IMG/VR virus record: IMGVR_UViG_3300011116_000802
Coordinates: 1 to 31,929 of that record
DNA from: a virus
Length of the DNA: 31,929 nucleotides
Strand: one strand, 5' to 3'
The translations under genes and the position numbers were made by a program. Below are positions 2,868 through 9,885 of this stretch, piece after piece. The notes under the pieces were generated by a model. That model was not told the origin of the DNA. It worked only from the letters and a program-made list of their open reading frames with translations, and ran no database searches. Numbering within the stretch: position 1 is the first letter of the stretch; each line of letters starts with the position of its first letter.

Positions 2868-3262
2868 GCGTCCTCCTTGATTGGAATAAATGCCGGTGCG
2901 TGATTGGTCAACAGGTGGTTTCTGTACGACGTGAAAGCGAAAGCCTGCGAAGTTTGGCGACTGACAATTCCGCATCCGTGGCTACCAACGCATTCAACTG
3001 ACCAAGTGAGGCCCCGTTTGGCTTGCTTTGCAGCTGGAGCGATGAGGCCGGCAAATCGATCATTCATTGACCGAAGCGACACAACATCAAGCGCAAACTG
3101 TCGGCTTTGGAAATTCCGTGGGTCTCGAGACATCCGAACAAACTCTTTGAAACCTTCGGTAGCGTTCAACATCCAATCTTCGGAATGAAGGCTCCAGTTA
3201 GCCGCTTTGCCTGGTACTCGCACAATGCGGTCAACGATGTAAACGGTGCAGTCAATGGTCAT
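2858..3262 (-). CDS. Hypothetical early protein, 134 aa
   Basis: Not recognised. The N-terminal 25 residues look like beta strands (TVYIVDRIVRV). A CVGSHGCG segment near 89-96 and a His/Cys at the extreme C-terminus (DACH) could bind metal. There is no membrane segment. The ATG overlaps the stop of the preceding gene (ATGA). It lies directly after the putative helicase-loader gene, so a replication role is plausible by context alone. Confidence 0.7.
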   Translation of the reverse strand: MTIDCTVYIVDRIVRVPGKAANWSLHSEDWMLNATEGFKEFVRMSRDPRNFQSRQFALDVVSLRSMNDRFAGLIAPAAKQAKRGLTWSVECVGSHGCGIVSRQTSQAFAFTSYRNHLLTNHAPAFIPIKEDACH

Positions 3263-3606
3263 CGTGACCCCTTCACCAGTTGAGGATTCTCGGATCGAAT
3301 GCGTTCAATCCATCGCTTCGCAACCTCGGGATTAAACGTTGACACTTCCTCGCTCGTGGTTACGGTTGTGGCCGGCACCATCGCACGACGAACCCGAAGC
3401 CTCGCCAAAAACTGCGCTTGCGTTGGCTTGCGGTCGGGAACCATCTTCACCAGGTCATCAATCACCTGGTTGGCTTCCTCACGGCTGATGTTCTGTACGG
3501 AATCCGTAAACATCATCACCCATGCTCGAGCCTCGTCACGGTTGATCTTCATCCGCCACAGCGAATCCATGTGGTGCATCACCGCAGCTGTGTCTGGTGA
3601 GTTCAT
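3259..3606 (-). CDS. Possible helicase loader / replisome accessory protein (G39P-like), 115 aa
   Basis: Small helical protein. Its N-terminal half (residues 10-70) shows a pattern of W...M...D/E-x-A-x-x-W followed by SREEANQVIDDLV and PTQAQFLARLR, which resembles the replisome organiser / G39P-like helicase loader family. Those proteins recruit a replicative helicase to the origin complex. The family match is by eye and tentative. It overlaps the stop of the DnaD-like replication gene by ATGA, the order commonly seen for initiator followed by loader. No helicase is encoded in the window, so it would have to load a host DnaB. Alternative: an unrelated small helical protein. Confidence 0.5.
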   Translation of the reverse strand: MNSPDTAAVMHHMDSLWRMKINRDEARAWVMMFTDSVQNISREEANQVIDDLVKMVPDRKPTQAQFLARLRVRRAMVPATTVTTSEEVSTFNPEVAKRWIERIRSENPQLVKGSR

Positions 3607-4457
3607 CGGCCTGCCTCCTGTTCAAGGAGGTCTCGTAAGGCCTCATCGATTGGATCAAGGCGAACGGACGACTCAGTCAGGCTTGGCCAGTGCTTCGTTA
3701 GTGCCGCAGGCGTGAGCATGGCGTCCGGCCATTTGCGATGAAAGATTTCTGACCGGCGTCGAACCTCTGCAACCGAAGTGCCAATCTCGAAGAGCTCAAG
3801 CACGGCTTTGTTCAAGTATGAAGCCGACGACCTGGTGTGAATCCCCTCAAGGTCGTCATCGCACGCATCAAGGATTGCTTCTTTGAGCTGAGCTTTGGTG
3901 CTCGCTCCCTCGCAATCGACGGAGTCGGTTGCAAGAGTATTTAGTTCTACTTCTACTTCTATTTCTACTTCTACTTCTAGCGCGCGAACTTCGCCGTTTG
4001 TTCGGCGCGCGGGCTGCACCCTTGTTACGTTGTTGTTCGGCGTAACACGATTTTGAGAAACCTGAACATTCTGGGCTTTTTCGGCTTCGGCTGCGCGCTT
4101 TTCCCGTGACTTTTCCATCCGAATTCGTGCAGCTTCTCGGCTGTCATCGACTTCTTTTCGTGACGTTTGCCACTCAAGATAATCATGGATGATGACGTTG
4201 GTTTCGTCGCCATCCCACTCCCAAAGACCACTTTCGAGCAATTGACGAGTGGCGGTCCTGTAATCCTTAACGTTGTGTGCCAGGGACGACAACTTCCGTT
4301 TTGGGATAACGCCATCGGTCAAATACTTACCGGCGTACATCAAACCGCAGACGTACATCCAGCACGCATCTGGCGACAGTTCGAGCGCCTTCGGATGGTC
4401 GGGGAAGTCCACCGCCATTCGAATCCATGCGCCACTTGCTTTTCTAGTTGCTGACAT
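3603..4457 (-). CDS. Replication initiation-type protein with winged-helix N-terminus (DnaD/phage replisome organiser-like), 284 aa
   Basis: Residues 10-100 have the pattern of phage winged-helix replication proteins: WIRMAVDFPDHPKALEL, then a Trp/Tyr-rich core, then KLSSLAHNVKDYRTATRQLLESGLW and VIIHDYLEWQ. Next comes a basic helix (105-130), an Asn/Arg linker, and a striking acidic run at 160-172 encoded by a hexanucleotide repeat. The C-terminal domain (about 190-284) is helical and may bind the origin or a loader. GGGAG seven bases before the ATG supports the start. The next gene overlaps by ATGA and may be its loader. Origin-binding and initiation are inferred from family and position; no origin iterons are obvious inside the gene. 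Confidence 0.65.
   Translation of the reverse strand: MSATRKASGAWIRMAVDFPDHPKALELSPDACWMYVCGLMYAGKYLTDGVIPKRKLSSLAHNVKDYRTATRQLLESGLWEWDGDETNVIIHDYLEWQTSRKEVDDSREAARIRMEKSREKRAAEAEKAQNVQVSQNRVTPNNNVTRVQPARRTNGEVRALEVEVEIEVEVELNTLATDSVDCEGASTKAQLKEAILDACDDDLEGIHTRSSASYLNKAVLELFEIGTSVAEVRRRSEIFHRKWPDAMLTPAALTKHWPSLTESSVRLDPIDEALRDLLEQEAGR
3945..3980 (-). repeat. Six-copy hexanucleotide repeat in the replication gene
   Basis: On the plus strand TTCTAC is repeated six times with changes only in the last base of copies three and six. On the coding strand this gives an alternating Glu-Val/Ile/Leu run (EVEVEIEVEVE). It is directly followed by a GC-rich imperfect inverted repeat (GCGCGCGAAC ... GTTCGGCGCGC at 3980-4010). 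Slippage here would add or remove two residues without a frameshift. Confidence 0.85.
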
Positions 4458-4478
4458 TTCCTCTCCCTTTGTTGCGAT

Positions 4479-4661
4479 CTATCGACTGGTCTCGATGAGT
4501 TGCCCCCAAGACCAGCGAGGTGATTCGTTGAGTTGCTTGCGCAACTTCTCGACTGCTTGCTCGAATGACTCGGCCTCGACGAAGTGAGACCAAAACATCG
4601 GTCCACCAAGCGCCTTGTAACTGCCGTAGGCCTTTAGTTCGAACATTCCGGTGCGTGGCAC
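4479..4661 (-). CDS. Small hypothetical protein, 60 aa
   Basis: Contains a compact alpha/beta pattern: MFELKAYGSY, then SFEQAVEKLRKQL, then a Trp-rich end (PRWSWGQL). The chosen GTG shares its G with the TAG stop of whiB (TAGTG), the same arrangement as at 5145. An ATG at 4646 is an alternative start and would leave a 14-base gap. It resembles small actinophage proteins with one strand-helix unit, but has no recognised function. It probably depends on whiB translation. Confidence 0.6.
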   Translation of the reverse strand: MPRTGMFELKAYGSYKALGGPMFWSHFVEAESFEQAVEKLRKQLNESPRWSWGQLIETSR

Positions 4662-4939
4662 TACTTCCGACCACTTCGCTTTTTGAATTGCAGGTAGCGG
4701 ATTTCCCCAATGGTGAGTCCGCCCCAAATTCCATGCGTGACGTCGTTGTCGATGGCGTAGTCCAGGCACTCAACCCGAACTGGACACAGGTCGCAAAACC
4801 GATGATGCGAAAACTGACGACGGTCGGGCGAAGGAAAAAAGATTTTGGCGTCTTGTCCCTTGCATTGCGCATGCTGCATCCACTCGGTCTTGCCGATCTC
4901 TTCCTTCAGGTGCGGCAGACCAAGCCAGTGACCGCTCAT
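4661..4939 (-). CDS. whiB: WhiB-family iron-sulfur transcription factor, 92 aa
   Basis: All four cluster-ligand cysteines of the family are present (C26, C49, C52, C58 in the CxxC-x5-C arrangement), followed by the family turn GIWGG at 70-74 and a basic C-terminus (FKKRSGRK) for DNA contact. WhiB proteins hold a 4Fe-4S cluster and bind the host primary sigma factor. The family is essentially restricted to actinobacteria and their phages, so this gene is the best host clue. The ATG at 4939 overlaps the stop of the upstream gene (ATGA), which rejects a much longer frame. In mycobacteriophage TM4 a phage WhiB represses host whiB2 and causes exclusion of superinfecting phage. A similar takeover or lysogenic-conversion role is possible here but is inferred. 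Confidence 0.93.
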   Translation of the reverse strand: MSGHWLGLPHLKEEIGKTEWMQHAQCKGQDAKIFFPSPDRRQFSHHRFCDLCPVRVECLDYAIDNDVTHGIWGGLTIGEIRYLQFKKRSGRK

Positions 4940-5145
4940 GACTGTTCCGCTTCCGGCAGTTGGCCGTACATCTTGATGACGTCGCCTACCGTTCGAGGTC
5001 GGAAACACCAAGCGCCACAGGTTCCACAAGAGTCGGAATTGTGCTCGAGCCACTGACAACCACAGCCGGTGCAGTTCAAGCGATAAATCGCCGTGATGCT
5101 CCCCTGCGGCAGCTCGAAAACATAAGTGGACTCTCGAAGTTGCAC
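4936..5145 (-). CDS. Zinc-ribbon protein, 69 aa
   Basis: Cysteines C25, C28 and C30 (CTGCGC) together with C40 and C43 (CGTC) form a classical zinc-ribbon arrangement, followed by a conserved-looking WCFRPRTVGD segment. The GTG start shares its G with the TAG of the upstream gene (TAGTG), and its TGA overlaps the whiB ATG. Co-translation with whiB suggests a related regulatory or protein-binding job. Specific function unknown. Confidence 0.75.
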   Translation of the reverse strand: MQLRESTYVFELPQGSITAIYRLNCTGCGCQWLEHNSDSCGTCGAWCFRPRTVGDVIKMYGQLPEAEQS

Positions 5146-5483
5146 TACGCCACAGCCCTAAGTTCACGGGTCTCAAAGAACCCATCAAGGTCAGGGCAGG
5201 TCGCCATGATGTGCCTGGCGTAAAACGACCGGTAGGAATTGTTCAACTTCCACTGGTCATTCGTGTTGGTCTCAATTTCGAAACTCCAACGGAGGCGCTC
5301 AACCAGCATTGCAATGCCGATCTTGCGTTGTCCTTGCGCCTTGGCAAACCGAGCCAAACGCACCAGCTCTTCAAAAACCCAAGGGTTTGAGTAATGAAAC
5401 TGCCAAAACCGATCTTCAAGGGTGAGGCCGGCATCGTAATTGACGTCAACGAAACTAAACAGGTCTGGCTGCACGGAGTTCAT
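5145..5483 (-). CDS. Conserved actinophage-type hypothetical protein, 112 aa
   Basis: The pattern of residues 22-90 (LEDRFWQFHYSNPWVFEELV, then KIGIAMLVERLRW, then KLNNSYRSFYARHIM) matches a small protein that I recall as widespread in actinophages and prophages, with an aromatic N-terminus, a winged-helix-like centre and a final helix. Its function is not established to my knowledge. It overlaps the stop of the upstream membrane protein by ATGA. A DNA-binding role would fit the fold impression and the RecT/WhiB neighbourhood, but that is inference. Confidence 0.75.
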   Translation of the reverse strand: MNSVQPDLFSFVDVNYDAGLTLEDRFWQFHYSNPWVFEELVRLARFAKAQGQRKIGIAMLVERLRWSFEIETNTNDQWKLNNSYRSFYARHIMATCPDLDGFFETRELRAVA

Positions 5484-7164: not shown

Positions 7165-7334
7165 GCTGAACGGGTCTTGCGCTTCGTTTGGAAAAGGTTC
7201 GGAAGCACTGGAAGAACAGCGAGACCCACTAGGACAGCAAAAGCCGTCATCACCCATGAAGGCGCTGCGCAGATGCCGACCCAAATCGTCAGCGAGACCA
7301 ACCAGATAAGTGTGTTGCGAAGTCGACGGTTCAT
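7161..7334 (-). CDS. Small membrane protein, 57 aa
   Basis: Open frame found between the excisionase-like gene and the coiled-coil gene. It begins MNRRLRNTLIWLVSLTIW and has two hydrophobic helices (about 8-23 and 27-46) with positively charged ends (NRRLRN at the start, KRKTRSA at the end), so both ends are predicted to be cytoplasmic. It overlaps its neighbours by ATGA on both sides. These overlaps and the clear membrane pattern support it. Function unknown. Confidence 0.7.
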   Translation of the reverse strand: MNRRLRNTLIWLVSLTIWVGICAAPSWVMTAFAVLVGLAVLPVLPNLFQTKRKTRSA

Positions 7335-7555
7335 GCTGCACCTGTTTCTGTTGAAGTGACGGGGAACAACGCATTGAGTACGTCAACGCGAACAAACCAA
7401 CGCTTTCCAACTCGAGTTCCAGGGATCTCACCGCGAACGATCATTCGCTTCACGCTCGTCACGGTGCAGCCCAGATATTGCGCAACACCGTGAGCATCGA
7501 TGAGCTGCGGAACTGGCACACCCTCTATCTCGTAGGTCCGGTTGATGATTGTCAT
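7331..7555 (-). CDS. Excisionase-like MerR-type helix-turn-helix protein, 74 aa
   Basis: Residues 18-66 match the DNA-binding domain of small excisionases: IDAHGVAQYLGCTVTSVKRMI, then RGEIPGTRVGKRWFVRVDVL, which is helix-turn-helix plus the wing strands. It is the first gene of the leftward early operon and is divergent from the repressor, so it could be a Cro-like or excisionase regulator. There is no ribosome binding site, and the ATG lies seven bases after a good -10 box, suggesting leaderless translation. An excisionase role is favoured by the fold and by the nearby integrase and attP; a Cro-type role is the alternative. Confidence 0.75.
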   Translation of the reverse strand: MTIINRTYEIEGVPVPQLIDAHGVAQYLGCTVTSVKRMIVRGEIPGTRVGKRWFVRVDVLNALFPVTSTETGAA

Positions 7556-7702: not shown

Positions 7703-7731
7703 TGGCAATGAAGTGCGTTAGCGCGTACAAT
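7703..7731 (+). promoter_or_regulatory. Candidate repressor promoter
   Basis: TACAAT at 7726-7731 is a near-perfect -10 box; the -35 region 17 bases upstream (TGGCAA, 7703-7708) is weak. The transcript would start near 7738, immediately before the GGAAGGAGG at 7741-7749. Because the -10 box overlaps the ATG at 7730, it argues against that ATG as the repressor start. AGCGCGTA at 7720-7727 also occurs inverted at 7566-7573 in the leftward promoter. Confidence 0.45.
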
Positions 7732-7753
7732 GGCAATAGCGGAAGGAGGCGAG

Positions 7754-8026
7754 GTGGTCGCCAAATCAAACGCTCAGACACTTTCGGCCGCATTAAGACT
7801 TCGCCGGCAAGAGCTCGAGCACACAATGCAACAAGCTGCCGATGTGATTGGCACTACAAACGCGACCGTGAGTCGCTGGGAAAGCAACAAGCAGATTCCC
7901 ACCAAGCCGGATCAGATCATTCCGATTGCTCGCTACCTTGGAATCAGCGTTCAAGATTTGTCGACAATTTTGTCTGAAACGGTGCGTCGAAACATCCTGG
8001 CGGAAATTGCCCGTTTCGAAGGCTAG
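7754..8026 (+). CDS. XRE-family helix-turn-helix repressor, 90 aa
   Basis: Residues 5-62 form a classic lambda-repressor-like HTH: LSAALRLRRQELEHTMQQAA, then DVIGTTNATVSRWESNKQIP, then IPIARYLGISVQDL. Such proteins dimerise on palindromic operators. The GTG start is chosen because GGAAGGAGG lies four bases ahead and the upstream ATG at 7730 lies inside the likely -10 box. It has no peptidase domain, so induction is not by RecA-type self-cleavage. Divergent from the early operon and next to the integrase, it is the probable lysogeny repressor. Its stop shares a CTAG with the stop of the convergent gene. Confidence 0.85.
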   Translation: MVAKSNAQTLSAALRLRRQELEHTMQQAADVIGTTNATVSRWESNKQIPTKPDQIIPIARYLGISVQDLSTILSETVRRNILAEIARFEG

Positions 8027-8355: not shown

Positions 8356-8458
8356 GAAACTTTGGACATACGGAACTCCCCTTTTCCTCATGTAACCATG
8401 TAAGTGGTCAGGAAAAGATTGTGATGCGGAATTGCGATGTACGCAAATGCACAATGCT

Positions 8459-8477
8459 GCAATGTTCTGAACATTGC
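8459..8477. promoter_or_regulatory. 19-bp palindrome (operator or excisionase site)
   Basis: GCAATGTTC and GAACATTGC flank a single central T, a perfect 9-1-9 palindrome. A further half-like GAACAT follows at 8478-8483. It lies in the 370-base gene-free stretch 8338-8709, about 40 bases from the first integrase-type direct repeat. It fits a dimeric regulator such as the XRE repressor. The operator near 7577 has a different sequence, so a different protein may bind here. Confidence 0.55.
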
Positions 8478-8514
8478 GAACATACGAGACTGTGCAATCT
8501 ACGAGGCAAAATTC

Positions 8515-8539
8515 TTGGTCACATCTTGGTCACATCTTT
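8515..8539 (+). repeat. 25-bp direct repeat, left copy (arm-type integrase site)
   Basis: Two overlapping TTGGTCACATC units in tandem followed by TTT. The identical 25 bases recur at 8679-8703. The two copies flank the tRNA-derived attP core, the expected layout of arm-type sites for a tyrosine integrase of this family. Confidence 0.75.
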
Positions 8540-8629
8540 GAGGCGTTTTGTGTCAAATTACGTCGATTGACGGCCAAGAAAGTCAAGGGAAATAAGGGTT
8601 TTGCATTTTAGATTCACGATTTCAAGCCC

Positions 8630-8667
8630 TTATGAGTCCCCTGCTCTAACCATTGAGCTACAGCCCC
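8630..8667 (-). other. attP: attP core: 5' half of a tRNA with CAT anticodon
   Basis: Read on the minus strand, the sequence is a perfect tRNA 5' half of 38 bases: acceptor strand GGGGCTG, D-stem GCTC/GAGC around AATGGTTA, anticodon 5' strand GGGGA and loop CTCATAA (CAT, so elongator Met or Ile). The match stops after the anticodon loop: no pairing TCCCC strand and no T-loop follow. This is typical of a phage attachment core copied from the host tRNA gene with strand exchange in the anticodon loop. It carries the 5' half, not the more usual 3' half. The integrase gene starts 43 bases to the right. Confidence 0.85.
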
Positions 8668-8678
8668 TTTGACACCTT

Positions 8679-8703
8679 TGGTCACATCTTGGTCACATCT
8701 TTT
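8679..8703 (+). repeat. 25-bp direct repeat, right copy (arm-type integrase site)
   Basis: Identical to 8515-8539, 11 bases from the attP core and ending six bases before the integrase ATG. Integrase binding here would cover its own promoter or translation start region, so autorepression is possible. Confidence 0.75.
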
Positions 8704-8709
8704 CAAAAG

Positions 8710-9885
8710 ATGCTAAAACATGACTTGGTGGCAAGAACTAATTACGGTACAGGCAATTTGGAAGAGCGTCCTCCTGGCTCAGGAACGTGGCGTTTGCGTT
8801 TCGCTGGAGGCCTTGATCCAGTCACGCACAAACGCAAACAAGTATCGATCACCTTTGAAGCGAAGAACCTAACGGCTGCGCGCAAGCGCGCCAACCAATT
8901 ACTTGTCGAACTCAAAGACCAGCAAGCAACTACCAGCTCGTCGTGCGAATACTTGTTTGAAGAGTGGATGAGGTTTTCCAAAGATCGAGGTCGAGCAGCC
9001 ACCACGTTGTACGGCTACCGCAAAGTTTTGAACCGATACATCTTGCCGGCCATTGGGCCATTGCCAATGGTTGACGTTGGACCGCATCATCTTGATCGCC
9101 TCTACTCGTCAATGAGCGAGCAAGGTTTGTCTCCGGTAAGCGTCCGGCAAGCGCACAAGATCATTTCGGTGGCGTTCAATCAAGCAATCAAGTGGGGATG
9201 GGTCGAACGCAATCCAGCCTTTCGAGCGACTCCCCCATCGCTGCAACCAACGAAACTTGTGGTGCCATCAGTGGAAGAGACCAAAACCTTCATTGCAGCT
9301 GCAATTGAGGAAAGCGCAATTCTTGGCGCCGTGGTGTACCTGGCTGCTCAAACTAGTGCTCGCCGTGGTGAAATTCTGGCTTTGCAATGGAGCGATGTTC
9401 GAGGCAACACCTTGATCATTTCAAAGGCCGTCTATGACATTGGCACTGAGGCCGGCATCAAACCGACAAAAACCGGTCGGGAAAGAATCATGCAGCTCGA
9501 CGAACGCCAACTGCAATGGCTGGCGGACTGGCGTGAGCATTGCGAAAACGACGCTGCACAGTTTGGCGTTTCACTTGAAGACAATTCCTTCATTATTCCT
9601 GGACGACCTGACGGGTCAACGTTTGTTCGGCCGGATCACATTTCCACGCTGGTTCGAAAGGTTGCCAAAAAGACTGGCCTCGAGCACATCCACCTTCACT
9701 CCATGCGGCACTTTGGCGCCACGATGCTGATGGCTCAAGGTTTTAGTCCAGTTGATACTGCCGAACGACTGGGACACTCGGACCCTGGAGTGACAATGCG
9801 GATTTACACACAAGCAACGGAAGGCCGGCAGCGAGAAGCGGCTTCGTTCATCAGTGGAATTTTGGAAGAGCCCAAGCCTTTGTAG
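8710..9885 (+). CDS. int: Tyrosine site-specific integrase, 391 aa
   Basis: N-terminal AP2-like arm-binding domain (YGTGNLEERPPGSGTWRLRF, about 12-31), a SAM-like core-binding domain (about 80-170) and a C-terminal catalytic domain. Catalytic residues are visible: R218 in TSARRGE, H330 and R333 in HSMRH, H356 in LGHSD and the nucleophile Y366 in RIYTQ. It recombines attP with the host tRNA gene. The frame is open back to a TTG at 8653 inside the tRNA core. The ATG at 8710 was chosen, but no good ribosome binding site is seen. A GTG at 8728 (giving VARTNYG) is a realistic alternative. Transcribed towards the late operon and separated from it by the 9940-9961 hairpin. Confidence 0.93.
   Translation: MLKHDLVARTNYGTGNLEERPPGSGTWRLRFAGGLDPVTHKRKQVSITFEAKNLTAARKRANQLLVELKDQQATTSSSCEYLFEEWMRFSKDRGRAATTLYGYRKVLNRYILPAIGPLPMVDVGPHHLDRLYSSMSEQGLSPVSVRQAHKIISVAFNQAIKWGWVERNPAFRATPPSLQPTKLVVPSVEETKTFIAAAIEESAILGAVVYLAAQTSARRGEILALQWSDVRGNTLIISKAVYDIGTEAGIKPTKTGRERIMQLDERQLQWLADWREHCENDAAQFGVSLEDNSFIIPGRPDGSTFVRPDHISTLVRKVAKKTGLEHIHLHSMRHFGATMLMAQGFSPVDTAERLGHSDPGVTMRIYTQATEGRQREAASFISGILEEPKPL

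Follow-up and report, generated by a model that had tools for sequence, protein, structure and literature searches.

The window analysed here, by which we mean the whole 31,929-bp virus record, carries genes for a terminase, a portal, a head protease, a major head protein, a tape measure and the tail, and is the genome of a temperate tailed phage. The region under study, positions 8515–8709, directly precedes a tyrosine integrase gene on the plus strand (P0001, 8710..9885), which is recognised by its Pfam Phage_integrase domain (3.7e-18) together with N-terminal and central domains. The R, K, HxxR, H and Y positions are conserved in the integrase alignment, and a tyrosine recombinase gene with its catalytic residues thus adjoins the attachment region. 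Integrases of relatives have the N-termini MATRRSYGTG and MAKRRPHGTG, which point to a later start and suggest that translation may begin at GTG 8728 or TTG 8725 rather than at ATG 8710. Further upstream lie a putative excisionase gene on the minus strand (7334..7555, 74 aa, MerR/HTH_17-like), assigned by its by-eye likeness to the 72-aa HTH_17 protein of an integrated element described below, and a repressor-like helix-turn-helix gene on the plus strand (7730..8026; HTH_3, 2.6e-10; PHROG transcriptional repressor).

Upstream of the integrase gene, the minus strand at 8630..8667 reads GGGGCTGTAGCTCAATGGTTAGAGCAGGGGACTCATAA (38 nt). This sequence matches exactly nucleotides 1–38 of complete CAT-anticodon tRNA genes in six genome contigs, five of which belong to Acidimicrobiales or uncultured actinobacterial MAGs and one to a Thermoguttaceae MAG. 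As expected for the attP core of a tyrosine integrase, the stretch is thus common to the phage and a host tRNA gene. Identity to the host tRNAs runs from nt 1 to nt 38, where the anticodon loop ends, and goes no further in either direction; this is exactly the extent of the direct repeats that bound the integrated relative in genome G359. No complete tRNA gene was found anywhere in the window, and the piece is therefore a half gene, namely the 5′ half (nt 1–38). In five genomes, the host CAT tRNA carrying the core is the sole copy within 3 mismatches. ARAGORN names it tRNA-Met; we presume that tRNA-Ile2 is the likelier identity. The tRNA identity and the relatives of the integrase together indicate that the host is probably a member of Acidimicrobiia. 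The first-pass annotation of this DNA had described the core as the 5′ half of a CAT tRNA up to the end of the anticodon loop, and had suggested a comparison with actinobacterial tRNA genes; the exact host matches in six contigs bear out this description over all 38 bases.

The core is flanked by two copies of the 25-bp sequence TTGGTCACATCTTGGTCACATCTTT, exact at 8515–8539 and 8678–8702, where shuffled sequences would be expected to give 0. Each copy consists of two tandem units of the 11-mer TTGGTCACATC followed by TTT, and this 11-mer occurs exactly in the window at just four places, all inside the two repeats. We assign the first copy (8515..8539, plus strand) as a putative left (P) arm-type site pair and the identical second copy (8678..8702, plus strand), which lies between the tRNA half and the integrase gene, as a putative right (P′) pair. 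The two identical, tandem-built repeats had been pointed out before, and they are as described except for one distance: seven bases, not six, separate the second repeat from ATG 8710, and a later start would leave 22–25 bases. Repeat pairs on both sides of the core are present in the window and in the related viral contigs L055, L056, L057 and L060. A tandem repeat with a spacing of 10–13 bp, counted where at least 8 of 9 positions match, stands just upstream of the integrase gene in 43 of 52 family loci as against 37 of 1,040 shuffles. Such repeats, spaced about 11 bp, precede the integrase gene both in loci with a tRNA 3′ half and in loci with a 5′ half. The flanking repeats are therefore not peculiar to the 5′-half arrangement; by comparison among these loci they are ordinary arm-site pairs of the integrase family, to which the integrase would bind. 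Thus the presence of the repeats stands, whereas a special tie to the 5′-half layout does not, since 3′-half relatives have arm-site pairs too.

As the repeats adjoin the integrase gene, a position where a regulator could act, one might take them for an operator, say of the repressor encoded at 7730–8026, and not for integrase arm sites. We consider this unlikely, given the excess of tandem repeats over shuffles just upstream of the integrase gene across the family and the occurrence of pairs on both sides of the core in five genomes or contigs. Mycobacteriophages, too, are proposed to have 11-bp arm-site pairs in this layout (PMC3203893).

The window phage itself was not found integrated when 395 genomes of the class, plus a phylum-wide sample, were searched with its integrase. 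Strong hits were obtained in 34 of the 395 genomes, and the phylum-wide sample yielded no closer integrase than the search within the class, where the closest, in G359, has 44% identity. This integrase belongs to an element of 5,342 bp from repeat to repeat, which also encodes a RepSA-type replication protein and an HTH_17 protein. Its direct repeats are exactly nt 1–38 of tRNA-Arg(CCT), and the copy at the integrase side continues 10 nt into the host 3′ half before the contig ends. A second element, in G308, is 11,213 bp long and encodes a TrwC relaxase. It lies between 43-bp repeats of tRNA-Thr(CGT), and the complete tRNA stands at its integrase side. In both elements, the integrase-side copy runs on into the 3′ half of the host tRNA, and it is the 5′ end of the host gene that has been displaced; the same outcome is predicted for the window phage. 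In G353 (L016), a complete tRNA is present at the integrase side, and a second 5′ half, different at one position and followed by arm repeats of a similar kind, is found on another contig. The evidence from L017/G396 is one-sided. When the window attP was joined in silico to three host tRNA genes, the junction next to the integrase gene was the only one to yield a complete tRNA.

Comparison of tRNA-Arg(CCT) loci shows what is displaced. In L111, L114, L115 and L119, an intact tRNA-Arg(CCT) is preceded by upstream sequences related to one another. The alignment of L111 with L116 (82%) covers this upstream region, enters the tRNA-Arg 5′ half and breaks off inside that half, where L116 has an assembly gap and then inserted DNA. 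The far-end fragment of the G359 element has an upstream of the same class as L111 and L116. Therefore, at tRNA-Arg, integration displaces the native upstream DNA. The first-pass annotation had proposed that integration would replace the host 5′ half and its promoter with phage DNA and that integrated relatives should be inspected; their junctions do lie in the tRNA, with the integrase-side copy joined to the 3′ half, and together with the in-silico joining they support a replacement of the host 5′ half and the DNA upstream of it, which for the window phage is a prediction.

Some other features of the tRNA-Arg(CCT) loci may be mentioned here. A class of upstream sequence with GCGCGGAACTTC repeats was considered as the native one and set aside, as the comparison of L111 with L116 makes the TTGTGCTGAGG class the better candidate. 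The presumed native upstream in L111, L114, L115 and L119 contains a tandem 11-bp repeat, TTGTGCTGAGGTTGTGCTG, which resembles an arm pair and may be a relic of an older integration. In L105 (G1058:C81:1-8000), the tRNA-Arg is at 797–871, and tandem tRNA-Arg(CCT) 5′ halves near 3036 and 4796 part an AbiE-like cassette from a Fic cassette. The flanks (CTAA|TCCGAAGATT and TGGAGCA arm repeats) are like those of the integrase-bearing G359 element, and no integrase was found near this cassette array. The Fic cassette occurs again in L108 and L110 at 78–88% identity; the cassettes of these three loci look like cis-mobilizable (CIME-like) elements that might move by an integrase acting in trans. In L107 (G1029:C47, about 3042–5190), a 2.1-kb segment with a HipA-like gene lies between two tRNA-Arg(CCT) 5′ halves, and no integrase was found at this segment. 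In L106 (G1032:C45, near 3839–3980), what remains of a G359-like integrase N-terminus (32 residues) adjoins a 5′ half, which suggests a decayed element.

Among viral contigs, a search with the integrase alone found no relative, and the exact 38-mer gave no match beyond the window; an alignment search did recover relatives. By eye and by BLAST, tRNA 5′ halves opposite in strand to the integrase gene were identified in nine further viral contigs. L055, whose integrase is 54% identical, has a CAT tRNA half of the window's kind, and CAT halves are also present in L059 and L158. The half is from tRNA-Ser(GCT) in L056, L060 and the near-identical L148 and L149, from tRNA-Thr(CGT) in L057 and from tRNA-Arg(CCT) in L138. 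Ordinary tRNA 3′ halves are present in L061, L144 and L150. In L056 and L057, short G/C-rich inverted repeats (GGGG...CCCC) were noticed by eye just upstream of the tRNA half, toward the integrase gene.

A careful tree of 50 integrases places eight 5′-half integrases in one clade (100/99). The pair L029 and L059 joins this clade with moderate support (89/88), and L075 stands apart. A quick tree with more loci has a 5′-half clade of ten rows (100), with L138, L075 and L158 placed elsewhere; the 3′-half label of a few rows in these trees denotes the absence of a recognised 5′ half. On the quick tree the half label needs four changes, three of them forced by the starred branches, and these counts partly depend on L158, a long branch of unsure placement, and on L075, whose tRNA and integrase gene are divergent and whose 5′-half state is unproven. 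The far end of L075 (G913) was looked for and not found, and this locus is therefore left out of the proven 5′-half cases. L138 is nested in a 3′-half clade at 100; its own integrated form was not seen, and by its position in the tree it appears to be the firmest separate 5′-half case. As the main 5′-half clade and the scattered cases lie inside a mainly 3′-half family, more than one switch in the polarity of the tRNA half is probable. The simplest reading has the core flipping within a fixed arrangement of arm sites and integrase gene.

Integration of this kind raises the question of how the rebuilt tRNA is transcribed. A promoter scan found no sigma-70-like site in 8450–8900. Scored with a weight matrix, 9 native tRNA upstream sequences came out no better than 11 from the phage or element side, and L056 alone scored above shuffles; an E. 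coli-like matrix of this sort may be a poor fit for these bacteria. Since the native upstreams score no better, the missing visible promoter is uninformative on expression. The earlier remark that no good promoter lies upstream thus holds in so far as none is recognisable, whereas its bearing on expression falls away. The phage side without a recognisable promoter could also be taken to mean that the tRNA is silent after integration and that the lysogen survives otherwise, for example by a second copy or a different isoacceptor. We judge this very unlikely, as five candidate host genomes have just one copy of this tRNA, the native upstreams are equally promoter-poor by the same scoring, and silence would leave a conserved, perfect 38-nt half unexplained. 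Phages can bear tRNA genes and remnants of them, and the fragment might be a phage-borne tRNA gene in decay, or have been picked up from a host by chance, with no role in integration; this is hardly credible for a fragment with limits at exactly nt 1 and nt 38, between paired repeats beside the integrase gene, when relatives keep the same half, place and orientation for four different tRNAs and integrated elements have the tRNA half as a direct repeat.

Very probably, therefore, the region 8515–8709 is an attP with a tRNA 5′ half, by which a temperate tailed phage rebuilds the host tRNA at the integrase end. The tyrosine integrase would recombine at the anticodon stem-loop of the single-copy CAT tRNA gene, where the crossover is predicted to lie. 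Because attP has the 5′ half and not the 3′ half, integration would leave the 5′ half that belonged to the host, with the region upstream of it, at the prophage end remote from the integrase gene. At the other end, the phage 5′ half and the host 3′ half would form a complete tRNA. We infer that the lysogen would transcribe this tRNA from phage DNA, in the stretch between the tRNA and the divergent integrase gene, which also contains one arm-site pair.

A bolder proposal, which we make tentatively and think possible rather than probable, is that transcription of a single-copy host tRNA passes to the phage. In the lysogen, the tRNA promoter, the integrase promoter and one arm pair would share ~60 bp, so that binding of the integrase could repress both its own gene and the tRNA, tying host translation to the prophage. 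The same proposal holds that the integrase family has several times switched between 3′ and 5′ halves by flipping the core against constant arm sites.

tRNA genes are classic landing sites of phages, which usually bring the 3′ half, so that the host promoter stays. A 5′-half lineage on at least four tRNAs, set among 3′-half relatives, allows one to ask directly how a host tolerates replacement of a tRNA promoter. Further questions within reach are if the phage gains control of the tRNA gene and by what route an integrase comes to reverse its target polarity.

Integration into a tRNA 5′ half has been described for the pTN3-like archaeal integrases (PMC8371274, PMC5495485). As in the window, their attB is the 5′ half (the shared stretch in pTN3 is 41 bp), and the tRNA is rebuilt yet parted from its original promoter. 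According to a review, the integrase promoter drives expression of the recombinant tRNA, and comparable cases are seldom met in bacteria (PMC8371274). However, these systems are archaeal, their attP lies inside the integrase gene and that of pTN3 is split on integration, whereas the window core (8630–8667) lies upstream of the integrase start at 8710 or 8728 and the gene beside it stays whole. Of the 3,919 islands counted in the Islander survey, 3,760 have a 3′ fragment and 159 (~4%) a 5′ fragment, the latter like the case predicted here in that the displaced fragment is the tRNA 5′ end; unlike our lineage, they are given there as a count, without mechanism or lineage (PMC4383910). In mycobacteriophages, paired 11-bp putative arm sites surround the core (PMC3203893). 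L5, Giles and cluster K have such ~11-bp pairs flanking a tRNA or tmRNA core at either end, beside the integrase gene, in direct orientation in Giles and L5 as in the window, but their cores typically include the tRNA 3′ half (PMC3203893, PMC10865867), and their integration therefore keeps the host promoter. Opposite-divergent pairs of integrase and tRNA genes are rare, and resemble the window in gene orientation and in an integrase promoter expected to overlap the attachment region; that survey, unlike our analysis, defines classes by gene orientation only, and this class and one other together make up <8% of 1,273 integrase-tRNA pairs (PMC2951348). In tRNA-dependent lysogeny, the core is short (~10 bp) and leaves the tRNA unrestored, and the phage encodes a tRNA gene (PMC10865867), whereas the window core of 38 nt rebuilds the tRNA in silico and the window has no tRNA gene.

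An earlier description of the present bacterial lineage was not found in the open-licence literature, and one may exist elsewhere. The window phage fits a known kind of 5′-half integration, to which our analysis adds phages and integrative elements of a bacterial lineage that targets at least four tRNAs and has apparently changed polarity; the junctions are resolved in two of the relatives.
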